Source: Nostoc linckia z4 (GTDB taxonomy: Bacteria > Cyanobacteriota > Cyanobacteriia > Cyanobacteriales > Nostocaceae). From it: a DNA stretch of 64,000 nucleotides. This document shows positions 19,433 to 41,211 of this stretch, in pieces. Made by a program: the position numbers and the translations under genes. The stretch covers positions 233,488 through 297,487 of the forward strand of contig NZ_LAHA01000001.1 of assembly GCF_002608075.1 (NCBI RefSeq). Reading direction: 5' to 3'. Below the pieces are notes generated by a model, which worked only from the letters and a program-made list of their open reading frames with translations, was not told the DNA's origin and made no database searches. Every line of letters begins with the position of its first letter. Position 1 is the first letter of the stretch.

Positions 19433-19468
19433 GAAAAATTATTCCTGTAAATTTTGAGGTGAAATTTA

Positions 19469-19509
19469 AACGCAAAGGGGCGCAAAGGTAAGCGCAGAGG
19501 TACGCGGAG
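19469..19509. repeat. 41-bp AACGCAAAGG dispersed repeat, single copy
   Basis: Matches the inverted repeats that bracket the GxxExxY gene (39872-39912 and 40292-40332), starting AACGCAAAGG and ending TACGCGGAG. Here it lies alone between the serine protease and CHAT genes. Confidence 0.75.
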
Positions 19510-19535
19510 TCTACGATGCTTAGTTACGAATTAGT

Positions 19536-38123: not shown

Positions 38124-39839
38124 CTAAAACAAAAAATATCTTTGGGTCATTGGTAAAGCTGTTGCAGGTTCACAAGTCAGTAAATTACCATCCGCCCAGA
38201 CTTCGTAGGTTTCTGGGTCAACTTCAATTTTAGGTAGCGCATCATTCAGCTTCATATCTTGCTTACTCAATTGGCGGGTTTGGGAAACTGCAACTGCTGT
38301 TTTGCGTAAACCCAACTGTGTAGGAATTTCCCTTTCTAAAGCCGCCTGGGAAACAAAAGTTAGTGATGTGGCGTTCTTCGCACCTGCAAAACTACCAAAC
38401 ATCGGTCGCATGTGTACTGGTTGGGGTGTGGGAATACTGGCGTTAGCGTCGCCCATTTGCGACCAGGCAATCATTCCGCCTTTAATGACTATTTCTGGCT
38501 TGACGCCAAAAAATGCCGGACGCCATAAGCACAGATCTGCTAATTTTCCCTCTTCCACAGAACCGACATATTCAGCAATTCCGTGGGCGATCGCTGGATT
38601 AATAGTATACTTAGCAACATATCTTTTTGCCCTAAAGTTATCTGCTGCTTGCTGAATTCCTTGTGGGTTGAGAGTTCCGCGTTGCACCTTCATTTTATGA
38701 GATGTCTGCCAAGTGCGAATTATTACCTCTCCTACCCTACCCATTGCCTGAGAATCAGAAGATATCATACTAAATGCACCTAAGTCATGCAAAATATCTT
38801 CAGCTGCTATGGTTTCTCGGCGGATGCGAGACTCAGCAAAAGCCACATCTTCAGCGATGGCTGGGTCTAGGTGATGACATACCATCAACATATCCAAGTG
38901 TTCGTCTAAGGTATTGAGGGTATAAGGACGGGTGGGGTTAGTGGAAGATGGTAAAACGTTGGCTTGGCCGCAAACTTTGATGATATCTGGTGCGTGTCCG
39001 CCACCTGCACCTTCAGTGTGGTAGGTGTGGATCACACGATTCTTAAACGCGGCGATGGTATCTTCCACAAATCCGGCTTCGTTGAGGGTATCAGTATGAA
39101 TAGCCACTTGCACATCATATTCATCAGCAACGCCAAGACAAGTATCAATGGCTGCGGGGGTCGTTCCCCAGTCTTCATGTAGCTTTAACCCCATTGCACC
39201 GGCGGTTACTTGTTCTACAAGTCCTTGGGGTTGACTGGCGTTTCCTTTACCCAAAAATCCTAAGTTAATGGGAAAAGCATCAGCGGCTTGCAGCATCCGA
39301 TAAATATTCCAAGGGCCTGGGGTGCAGGTAGTGGCGTTTGTGCCGGTAGCGGGGCCAGTACCGCCGCCAATCATCGTAGTGACACCAGAAGCGATCGCCA
39401 CTTCAATTTGTTGGGGACAAATAAAATGAATATGGGCGTCAATACCACCAGCAGTGAGAATCATTCCTTCTCCTGCTAAAGCTTCAGTGCCAGGGCCAAT
39501 AATAATATCTATATTATTTTGAATATAAGGATTTCCGGCTTTACCAATTTTGAAAATTTTGCCATCTTTAATGCCGATATCTGCTTTAACGATACCCCAC
39601 CAATCGAGGATTAAAGCATTAGTAATTACTAAATCTACAGCCCCATCAGCATTAGAAATAGGAGATTGTCCCATGCCATCTCGAATAACTTTTCCGCCGC
39701 CGAATTTAACTTCATCGCCGTAGGTGGTGAAATCTTGTTCGACTTCGATAAATAATTCTGTGTCTGCAAGTCGGATTTTGTCTCCGACAGTGGGGCCATA
39801 GGTTTCGGCGTAGGCGCGGCGGGACATTCTGTAAGGCAT
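38124..39839 (-). CDS. ureC: Urease subunit alpha
   Basis: Catalytic subunit that hydrolyses urea at a dinuclear nickel centre. The start at 39839 ([20 protein letters not shown]) gives 571 aa, the family's normal length; the open frame runs 75 codons further upstream, but that part is translated repeat DNA and the facing cassette. Nickel ligands are visible in DAHIHF (about residue 137), the carbamylated Lys in [11 protein letters not shown] (about residue 219) and HTDTLNE, with the VCHHL flap and [11 protein letters not shown] segments downstream. Last gene of the ureD-A-B-DUF1349-C series, separated from it by an inserted gene. Confidence 0.97.
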
Positions 39840-39871
39840 ATTTTTAGTAATGGAGGTTAAGATTGAGTTTA

Positions 39872-39912
39872 AACGCAAAGGAGCGCAAAGGTAAGCGCAA
39901 AGGTTCGCAGAG
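39872..39912. repeat. Left inverted repeat of the GxxExxY cassette
   Basis: A 41-bp sequence from AACGCAAAGGAGCGC to TTCGCAGAG, ending one base before the GxxExxY start codon. About 33 of 41 positions match the reverse complement of 40292-40332. Confidence 0.85.
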
Positions 39913-39913
39913 G

Positions 39914-40291
39914 ATGGATGAGAATAATTTGAGTGGGGTGATAATTGGTTGTGGGATGCGAGTGCATACAGCGTTGGGGCCGGGTTTGTTAGAGTCAGCT
40001 TATGAGGAGTGTTTGTATTACGAATTGAGAAAGAAGGGGTTAAATGTTGGTAAGCAAGTTCCATTACCGCTTATTTATGAAGAGGTGAAATTAGATTGTG
40101 TTTATCGATTATATTTAATAGTTGAAGATCGAGTAATTATTGAGGTTAAGTCTGTAGAATCCATCAACCCAATTCACTCCGTACAACTTTTAACTTATCT
40201 CAAATTAACTAATTGTAAACTCGGTCTTATTCTCAACTTTAACGTTCTCCACCTCAAAGAAGGCATTAAACGTGTGGCAAACAAACTCTAA
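39914..40291 (+). CDS. GxxExxY protein inserted in the urease operon
   Basis: A 125-aa protein of the GxxExxY family, seen as [18 protein letters not shown] (about residues 27-44), followed by a [25 protein letters not shown] segment whose D...E-x-K pattern suggests the PD-(D/E)XK nuclease fold. Function in vivo is unknown. The ATG at 39914 is chosen because an earlier Met would translate the repeat. It is on the opposite strand to the urease genes, and both ends coincide with inverted-repeat arms within 1 nt, so it looks like a mobile cassette. Confidence 0.85.
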
Positions 40292-40332
40292 CTCCGCGTA
40301 CCTCCGCGTTTACCTCAGCGTCCCTTTGCGTT
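40292..40332. repeat. Right inverted repeat of the GxxExxY cassette
   Basis: A 41-bp sequence from CTCCGCGTACCTCCGCG to CCCTTTGCGTT, beginning directly after the GxxExxY stop codon; imperfect complement of 39872-39912. Confidence 0.85.
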
Positions 40333-40360
40333 AAAAAATCAATTAACTCATAACTATTCC

Positions 40361-40903
40361 TTAAAAACTACGAATTTGCAAATTTTCAAACCTCATCTGA
40401 AAACCATTTCCTTCAGGTGAGGCACACATCACACCGACATTTAATGTTTCCACTGGAGTCAAATAAGCAAGTCGCAGCATTGTATACTCACTTCCATTCA
40501 AAGAGTATTCCACCTCTATTGCTGTGCCGCGTCGAGTTACACGTATCCAAATTGCAGAAGAATTTTGCGGCACTGGAATAACAGACCAATCTGAGTAATT
40601 ACGCGTCACTACTGCGCTAATTTGTTGCACGCCATCCACAAATTCAATGCCACATTTTAACCAATTAAATTCATCTGAACGTACCATCAAGCCGGCTTGA
40701 TCGTATAAATCGTGATACTGTCCAGTCACTTTAACTTCTGCAATAAAGTCACCTTCAATTGTTTGATAAAAAAAGTGACCGTTATCTCTTATAAAACCGT
40801 AGTGAGTTTCCCGCCAAAAATCTGTTTTTGCCCCAGAAGTAACAGCGATCGCTTCATCTTTTACTTCCCAAACAGGCGGCTCATTATACCATTCCATTTG
40901 CAT
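40361..40903 (-). CDS. DUF1349 protein in the urease operon
   Basis: A 180-aa protein resembling the DUF1349 family, which has a concanavalin-like beta-sandwich fold. Family-like segments are FWRETHYGFIRDNGHFFYQ, YDQAGLMVRSDEFNWLKCGIE and VGVMCASPEGNGFQMRFENL. No signal peptide. It starts 2 nt after ureB on the same strand, so it belongs to the urease transcript. No role in urease is known to me; the family is often linked to sugars. Confidence 0.82.
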   Translation of the reverse strand: MQMEWYNEPPVWEVKDEAIAVTSGAKTDFWRETHYGFIRDNGHFFYQTIEGDFIAEVKVTGQYHDLYDQAGLMVRSDEFNWLKCGIEFVDGVQQISAVVTRNYSDWSVIPVPQNSSAIWIRVTRRGTAIEVEYSLNGSEYTMLRLAYLTPVETLNVGVMCASPEGNGFQMRFENLQIRSF

Positions 40904-40905
40904 AA

Positions 40906-41211
40906 TTATAGAGAACCGTTAATTTTAGCGTTGAAACCGTAGACTTGGCGACTACCAACCAAAGGCACTAATGTGATTTCTTTTTCATCCCCAGGTTCAA
41001 ATCTAACTGCCGTGCCTGCGGGGATATCGAGACGCATTCCTCGCGCTTGTTCTCTGTTAAAATTTAAGGCTGCGTTAACTTCGTAAAAGTGAAAATGGGA
41101 ACCGACTTGTATGGGGCGATCGCCTGTATTTGAAACTTGTAATTTAATAATAGGACGACCAGAATTTAGTTCAATTTCACCTTCTGGTGGAATAATTTCT
41201 CCAGGAATCAT
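40906..41211 (-). CDS. ureB: Urease subunit beta
   Basis: Structural subunit of the urease trimer. The 101-aa sequence is canonical: [16 protein letters not shown] at the start, [19 protein letters not shown] (about residues 37-55) and the [24 protein letters not shown] segment. Lies between ureA (18 nt upstream) and the DUF1349 gene. Confidence 0.97.

Follow-up and report, generated by a model that had tools for sequence, protein, structure and literature searches.

The stretch of DNA analysed here (the window) is 64,000 nucleotides long, from Nostoc linckia z4, and contains a urease operon into which a small gene of the GxxExxY family is set between two inverted repeat arrays, its arms. The features discussed below are, by position in the window:

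19465..19511, plus strand: lone arm of the same family as the window arms, 4 units, near a CHAT gene
38124..39839, minus strand: ureC, its start codon 28 nt from the outer end of the left arm
39868..39913, plus strand: left arm, 4 units of ~11 nt: AACGCAAAGGA GCGCAAAGGTA AGCGCAAAGGT TCGCAGAGG
39914..40291, plus strand: GxxExxY / PDDEXK_3 gene, 125 aa, predicted PD-(D/E)XK nuclease fold (pLDDT 95.4)
39923..39937, plus strand: codons of residues 4-8 (N4 N5 L6 S7 G8), in helix 1
40112..40114, plus strand: codon of residue 67, Tyr in the window copy (from a 308-sequence alignment)
40292..40336, minus strand: right arm, 4 units, inverted relative to the left arm
40361..40903, minus strand: DUF1349 gene (PF07081), between ureB and the cassette
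40906..41211, minus strand: ureB

The last unit of the left arm closes at 39913 and the ATG begins at 39914; the TAA stop codon, 40289-40291, is followed directly by the right arm, from 40292. A sequence-only reading of this DNA had described the gene as tightly framed by imperfect inverted repeats of 41 bp, and the coordinates of the start codon, stop codon and both arms agree with it; the repeat itself measures 45 nt (39868-39912 with 40292-40336) and is 78% complementary. Each arm is an array of four AACGCAAAGGN-type units of ~11 nt. As also described there, the cassette lies inside the ure operon on the opposite strand, between ureC and the DUF1349 gene, which is followed by ureB, and the solitary third arm near the CHAT gene, placed there at 19469, is real. 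The protein matches two models over its full length, PF13366 (E 5.5e-41, 140 bits, cut-off 22) and TIGR04256, GxxExxY (E 2.3e-42, 144 bits, cut-off 35). A two-unit arm pattern with up to 3 mismatches occurs 5 times in the 64-kb window against 0.67 expected, a count reached in 0 of 100 shuffles. Antisense within ureC, at about 39398-39683, lies a match to Rfam family 5_ureB_sRNA (RF02514, 121.9 bits), which probably represents coding conservation of urease, not an sRNA.

The window arm is a member of a repeat family dispersed throughout the host genome, where a 20-mer pattern (up to 2 mismatches) gives 81 matches as against 1 for a backward control. These arms are found singly and sometimes as tight inverted doublets, and the family so dispersed is also tied to the GxxExxY gene. 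A single arm is a direct array of units rather than a palindrome; the inversion is between arms. The host genome has one other GxxExxY gene (L002), upstream of valS, with inverted arms of a different unit type, ACGAACCGCAGAGGCGCAGAG. Type-A arms occur in all 53 genomes examined from the window's genus, and because these include five without a PF13366 match (G005, G006, G019, G021 and G032, with 16-34 arm matches each), arms outlive genes. Unit words differ by protein lineage and include CGCAAAG, CGCAGAG, CACGAAG, CGCCAAG, CGCAGATG, CACGGATT, AGGATT, TGATT, CACGAAT, CGCAACG and more.

PF13366 was searched for in the 53 genus genomes, of which 48 gave a match (one weak only), and in 244 genomes of the phylum, of which 51 did. 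From these, 119 cyanobacterial loci were fetched, and the gene was present in 117. Arms were scored by a motif-free test, in which the 250 bases upstream were locally aligned with the reverse complement of the 250 bases downstream and compared with shuffles. Inverted arms were present at 98 of 116 cyanobacterial GxxExxY loci (many of them orthologues) and at none of 93 control ORFs of 100-300 aa, drawn from the 8-kb loci among the same set. A named-locus set of 80 loci (4 cyanobacterial, 2 archaeal) had 77 that were testable, of which 42 passed, that is, 39 of 74 outside cyanobacteria, with one of the two archaeal loci (L265) passing; further loci in other phyla passed in 48 of 71 cases. Strict inverted repeats were absent at 35 of the 77 named and 23 of the 71 further loci. 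Loci were dropped where phmmer found no gene (L168, L179), where no ORF was found (L183, L208, both in the range of the PF05635 loci described below) or where flanks were short (L134, downstream; L235, L249, L279).

The orientation of individual units gives the same picture of arms that point toward the gene from both flanks. At 114 cyanobacterial loci, upstream units were 293 plus and 29 minus, and downstream units 21 plus and 282 minus; the corresponding counts at 75 named loci (3 cyanobacterial) were 177 and 75 upstream, 68 and 217 downstream. Triple CGCARAG arrays occur in 41 of 244 cyanobacterial genomes, namely in 34 of the 44 with a full-length GxxExxY gene (PF13366 match at E < 1e-20) versus 7 of 200 others (Fisher test, kinship uncorrected). 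The association between GxxExxY genes and arms, the absence of which was to have told against the sequence-only reading, thus exceeds chance by a wide margin, both within cyanobacteria and in other phyla, and the pairing seen in the window is far wider than one locus. Lone arms and arm pairs without a gene, found also in gene-free genomes, would be expected if the gene were carried along by an ordinary MITE or REP family that another transposase mobilises. We regard this as very improbable, given that the pairing of gene and arms recurs in many phyla with differing units that follow the protein.

Inverted arrays are not unique to GxxExxY. In cyanobacteria, the PF05635 loci (L180-L209), which encode four-helix-bundle / 23S IVP proteins, have inverted arms at 20 of 28 loci, with units (AGTGAATA, GGTGACA, AGGGAATA and AGAGGCAAA) that differ from those of GxxExxY.

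The two arms of a GxxExxY locus resemble each other. A left and a right unit of one locus were identical with a frequency of 0.479 as against 0.174 when permuted (maximum 0.230 of 2000; 106 loci). In 25 four-unit loci, orthologues in many cases, agreement in register was 0.540 within a locus and 0.316 between different loci, a difference reached in 0 of 2000 permutations. Such in-register agreement of inverted arms could mean that they are recognised as RNA, pairing in transcripts like the intervening sequences (IVS) of 23S rRNA, so that the element is excised or shielded and its insertion into an operon is tolerated. PF05635, the family of the 23S IVS proteins, has the same layout, as just described. 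Passages of one report (PMC4990558) describe 23S IVS of ~430-470 nt in total with a small ORF between inverted repeats and tandem units beside the ORF, the Coxiella element having inverted ends and tandem heptamers before the ORF. Two RNA splicing endonucleases are also found among structural matches to GxxExxY, at Foldseek ranks 4 and 6, with weak scores. Mismatches between arms, read as sense RNA, comprise 262 G-U and 277 A-C, with 645 transversions; this shows no wobble bias and therefore favours DNA over RNA pairing. Furthermore, the better structural matches are DNA nucleases, an rRNA match was found in 0 of 20 GxxExxY loci searched, the window element sits in the ure operon, and the GxxExxY fold differs from that of PF05635. 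The cassette therefore resembles 23S IVS in layout only (a bracketed small ORF with tandem units), and we consider recognition as RNA unlikely.

Unit sequence follows protein sequence. Units were numbered as C[GA]CNNAG, with NN as bases 4 and 5, and residues by the window protein; CACGCAG, CGCGCAG and CGCACAG units were excluded from base counts as overlap artefacts. Base 5 was tabulated for the 132 loci that had four or more AG-type units. Loci whose residues 7-8 are TG (9 loci) or TE (5 loci) all have G, while mean G is 0.01 for AY (15 loci), 0.00 for AK (7) and 0.06 for SK (12); SG (mean G 0.74, 44 loci) and AT (0.33, 8 loci) are mixed. Exceptions to the resulting rule are the SG proteins L082 and L090, with 0.25 and 0.29 G, and TH in L264. 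At base 4, over all loci and with kinship uncorrected, Asn at residue 4 goes with A in 110 of 113, and Asp or Glu with C or G in 25 of 30.

A screen over all protein columns used tree-disjoint pairs differing in base, on a tree built without residues 1-12. Run on the same data that gave the rule (several valS-site loci among them), it placed residue 7 at the top and residue 8 next for base 5, and residue 4 at the top for base 4, and it showed base 2 to covary with residues 122-125. Under the combined rule, 10-11 of 16-17 tree-disjoint pairs went in the expected direction, none in the opposite direction, and 6 were tied. When treekit was restricted to well-supported branches, 5 independent pairs gave a mean of 3.8 the same way and 0.0 the other (median p 0.125), a number of pairs with which this test cannot reach significance.

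For a prospective test, the rule was fixed beforehand and applied to 110 genes from 50 genomes outside cyanobacteria. Excluded were 39 genes with 90% or more identity to earlier ones and, of the remaining 71, the 50 that had fewer than four AG-type units. Of the 21 loci kept, 16 were right, 0 wrong, 3 mixed and 2 gave no call; the chance of 16 out of 16 is about 9e-5 if loci are independent. In this new-locus set alone, the relationship of residue 4 to base 4 is weak, with mean A of 0.75 for Asn (14 loci), 0.62 for Asp (2) and 0.44 for Glu (3), Thr and His being represented by one locus each.

Residues that covary with the arms are found close to both gene ends (residues 4-8 with bases 4 and 5, residues 122-125 with base 2), which is compatible with linkage only, in which arms and gene ends recombine together and become correlated without recognition. 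The rule holds equally, however, for the right arm, ~400 bases from the N-terminal codons (124 right, 7 wrong, 20 mixed), and for the left (103, 7 and 21), which speaks against mere linkage. In the screen, it is residues 7, 8 and 4 that come out on top and not the N-terminus as a whole, and the same residue goes with the same base across phyla and in new genomes. Linkage only seems to us distinctly unlikely.

The valS site shows the covariation at one position within one genus. The gene is present in 28 of 30 orthologous loci (N-terminus unread in 2 of the 28 cassettes), with four unit types that track residues 4-9. The commonest word is CGCAGAG for N[QR]LTG (9 of 9), CGCAAAG for ENLAYR (8 of 8), CGCCAAG for DRL[AV]YA (4 of 4) and C[GA]CGAAG for E[QK]L[AV]YA (5 of 5), and left and right arms change word together. 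The sequence-only reading had suggested that the GxxExxY protein may act on its own repeats; covariation of residues with bases, together with the test on new loci, lends this strong support, of an indirect kind.

An AlphaFold2 model built with 76 of our own sequences (pLDDT as listed above, pTM 0.88) places residues 3-21 in helix 1, on one face of which residues 4, 7 and 8 should lie, judging by their spacing. Pfam files PF13366 in the PD-(D/E)XK superfamily, and the model has the core fold. In fold comparison by VIA, Z was 9.8 for Cas4 (4ic1), 8.4 for the restriction-like 3ijm and 7.2 for Hjc (1gef), among others, where values below 8 may reflect only a common arrangement. Foldseek returned no match at E <= 0.001, the best being 9.8e-3, and PADLOC gave weak matches only, with Cas4-like at the top. 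Among 308 aligned sequences, E27 is conserved in 306, D67 in 305, E77 in 306 and K79 in 305, so that the D...ExK set is complete in the family at large; fold and conserved residues together point to nuclease activity. The window copy has E77 and K79 and an incomplete set, position 67 being Asp in 305 sequences, a gap in 2 and Tyr in the window copy only. Because Tyr replaces the conserved D67, the window copy is unlikely to cut, and it has probably lost catalysis, although it may bind. GxxExxY genes are under purifying selection, with median dN/dS of 0.090 at the GH15 site, 0.127 at ure, 0.196 at valS and 0.133 for type B.

The ureB-ureC interval was compared in 30 of 53 loci of the genus, and 25 of the 30 were read in detail (in the other five, L297, L304, L313, L314 and L316, the fetched stretch lacks all or part of ureB). 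Four loci have the cassette, host included, and one a decayed cassette. Another 12 have an arm by itself, two to four units long and oriented as the ureC-side arm, two have a short arm plus another insert (L294, L296), three have DUF1349 beside ureC and no arm, and three have other content. Two genomes from a different genus (L098, L101) also have the cassette, placed precisely between their ureB and ureC genes. The DUF1349 gene, whole or partial, lies between ureB and ureC in 6 of the 30 loci; in L292, it is followed by a remnant of the ureC start, which suggests that whole blocks recombined into the ure operon.

A second well-populated site lies behind a GH15 gene, recognised by its tail, where 24 of 30 genus loci have the cassette, none of the 24 inverted. 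In relatives, this site is bare (L339), carries a scar of fused outer units (L321), truncated genes (L322, L340) or arm pairs without a gene (L331, L332), variants that fit insertion followed by decay between the arms. G048 has a naive GH15 site, with a different end to its GH15 gene. About 13 kb separate two parts of the GH15-site cassette in G002, the front of the gene at 458 kb and the remainder and right arm at 471 kb (L341, L342).

Most similar cassettes sit at orthologous sites. Among 449 pairs of cassettes at least 84% identical, likeness runs on for over 180 bases beyond the gene, on one side or both, in 432, and ends near both arms in 10. Joined valS flanks were matched in 52 of 53 genus genomes and contiguous in none. 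A comparison of ure operons with and without the cassette had been proposed as a way to look for empty sites, and among the ure and GH15 loci read we found no clean empty site with target duplication; nor was a transposition intermediate seen at the loci examined. GxxExxY is all but missing from viral contigs, where one locus was found, and from plasmids, with 8 of 72,556 records, and a phage collection gave no match. One GxxExxY gene does appear in a table for a eukaryotic algal virus (PMC12085832), so viruses are not wholly without the family. The sequence-only reading is supported in part, and its very small mobile unit would be one that spreads occasionally.

The same observations could be explained by binding without mobility, the arms being operators, or an immunity or self-marking sequence, of a regulator or defence nuclease that descends vertically. 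Besides orthology and the near absence from phages, viral contigs and plasmids, purifying selection is in keeping with this, as is the start of the gene directly at the left arm in the window's type. It fits less well with cassettes at unrelated sites, with dispersed lone arms and gene-less arm pairs, with up to 11 copies of GxxExxY per genome in other phyla, and with PADLOC matches that are only weak and Cas4-like first. We think this rather unlikely.

Gene and arms are a co-evolving pair. The explanation that we favour, and consider quite probable, is that the GxxExxY family consists of small PD-(D/E)XK nucleases, each recognising the units of its own arms, read through helix 1, with upkeep of the arms linked to repair. 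The protein would recognise the short units of both its own arms and of related dispersed arms, binding them directly as DNA, with the start of helix 1 reading the unit C[GA]C-N4-N5-AG. Residue 4 would set base 4, Asn specifying A, and Asp or Glu mostly C or G. Residues 7-8 would set base 5, which would be mostly G with Thr7, or with Ser7 followed by Gly or Glu8, and mostly A with Ala7, or with Ser7 followed by Lys or Tyr8. The best explanation is that helix 1 recognises the arms directly. The protein may also cut at the arms; by analogy with REP/RAYT pairs and homing nucleases, repair of the break between arms could keep the arms alike and occasionally spread arms or whole cassettes, one of which would have settled in the urease operon of the window.

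A broader proposal, to which we give an even chance, is a self-targeting nuclease family of Bacteria and Archaea with an evolvable helix-to-base code. Since a change in the helix would rewrite all words of both arms, each lineage would form its own pairing of nuclease and repeats, able to maintain those repeats and now and then to spread them. If the protein does read its arms, a large family whose function is unknown and a large class of so far unexplained repeats between genes account for each other, a small nuclease has a new residue-to-base code that binding assays could test, and the valS site displays co-evolution of nuclease and target at one site in one genus, with both arms rewritten together. 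In the open-access literature, to which our search was confined, we found just two passing mentions of GxxExxY, and no paper on its association with arms.

The GxxExxY-arm pair is somewhat like REP/RAYT systems in its working and is not a member of them. Passages of one study (PMC3116915) describe a RAYT gene beside its own family of short repeats, which are also dispersed as lone elements or inverted doublets; a genome has several lineages of the gene, each paired with a repeat type of its own, and descent is largely vertical at the species level. GxxExxY is similar in having its own dispersed repeats of lineage-specific type. It differs in that RAYT is an IS200-like Y1 transposase whereas GxxExxY is PF13366, with the PD-(D/E)XK fold; in that a REP is a palindrome whereas the GxxExxY repeat is an array of 9-12 nt units; and in that its arms bracket the gene and their unit bases follow protein residues. 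Cas4, Hjc and other small PD-(D/E)XK nucleases share the fold and D/ExK-type residues, but at GxxExxY loci no Cas genes or resolvase role were seen, the gene is flanked by its own repeat arrays, and Foldseek similarity is weak, as given above. Homing endonucleases are likewise small, selfish-looking nuclease genes, sequence-specific for their own insertion context. GxxExxY differs from these in that we saw neither an intron or intein nor a single cognate target, and that its words flank the gene and are dispersed.

For CAGAT-type versus CAGAG-type units, a screen for the residues that pair with them gave just 3 independent pairs; in some lineages (L371, L393, L395, L410, L424, L444, L467 and others), the unit ends in AT (CACAGAT, CACGGAT, CACGAAT), not AG. 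Another small dispersed repeat, GACGGCAGTCGCTACAACGGGGGAACCCCCGCAACGCGCTGCCTC-like, is inserted within arms at the ure and GH15 sites (L293, L309, L323, L347).
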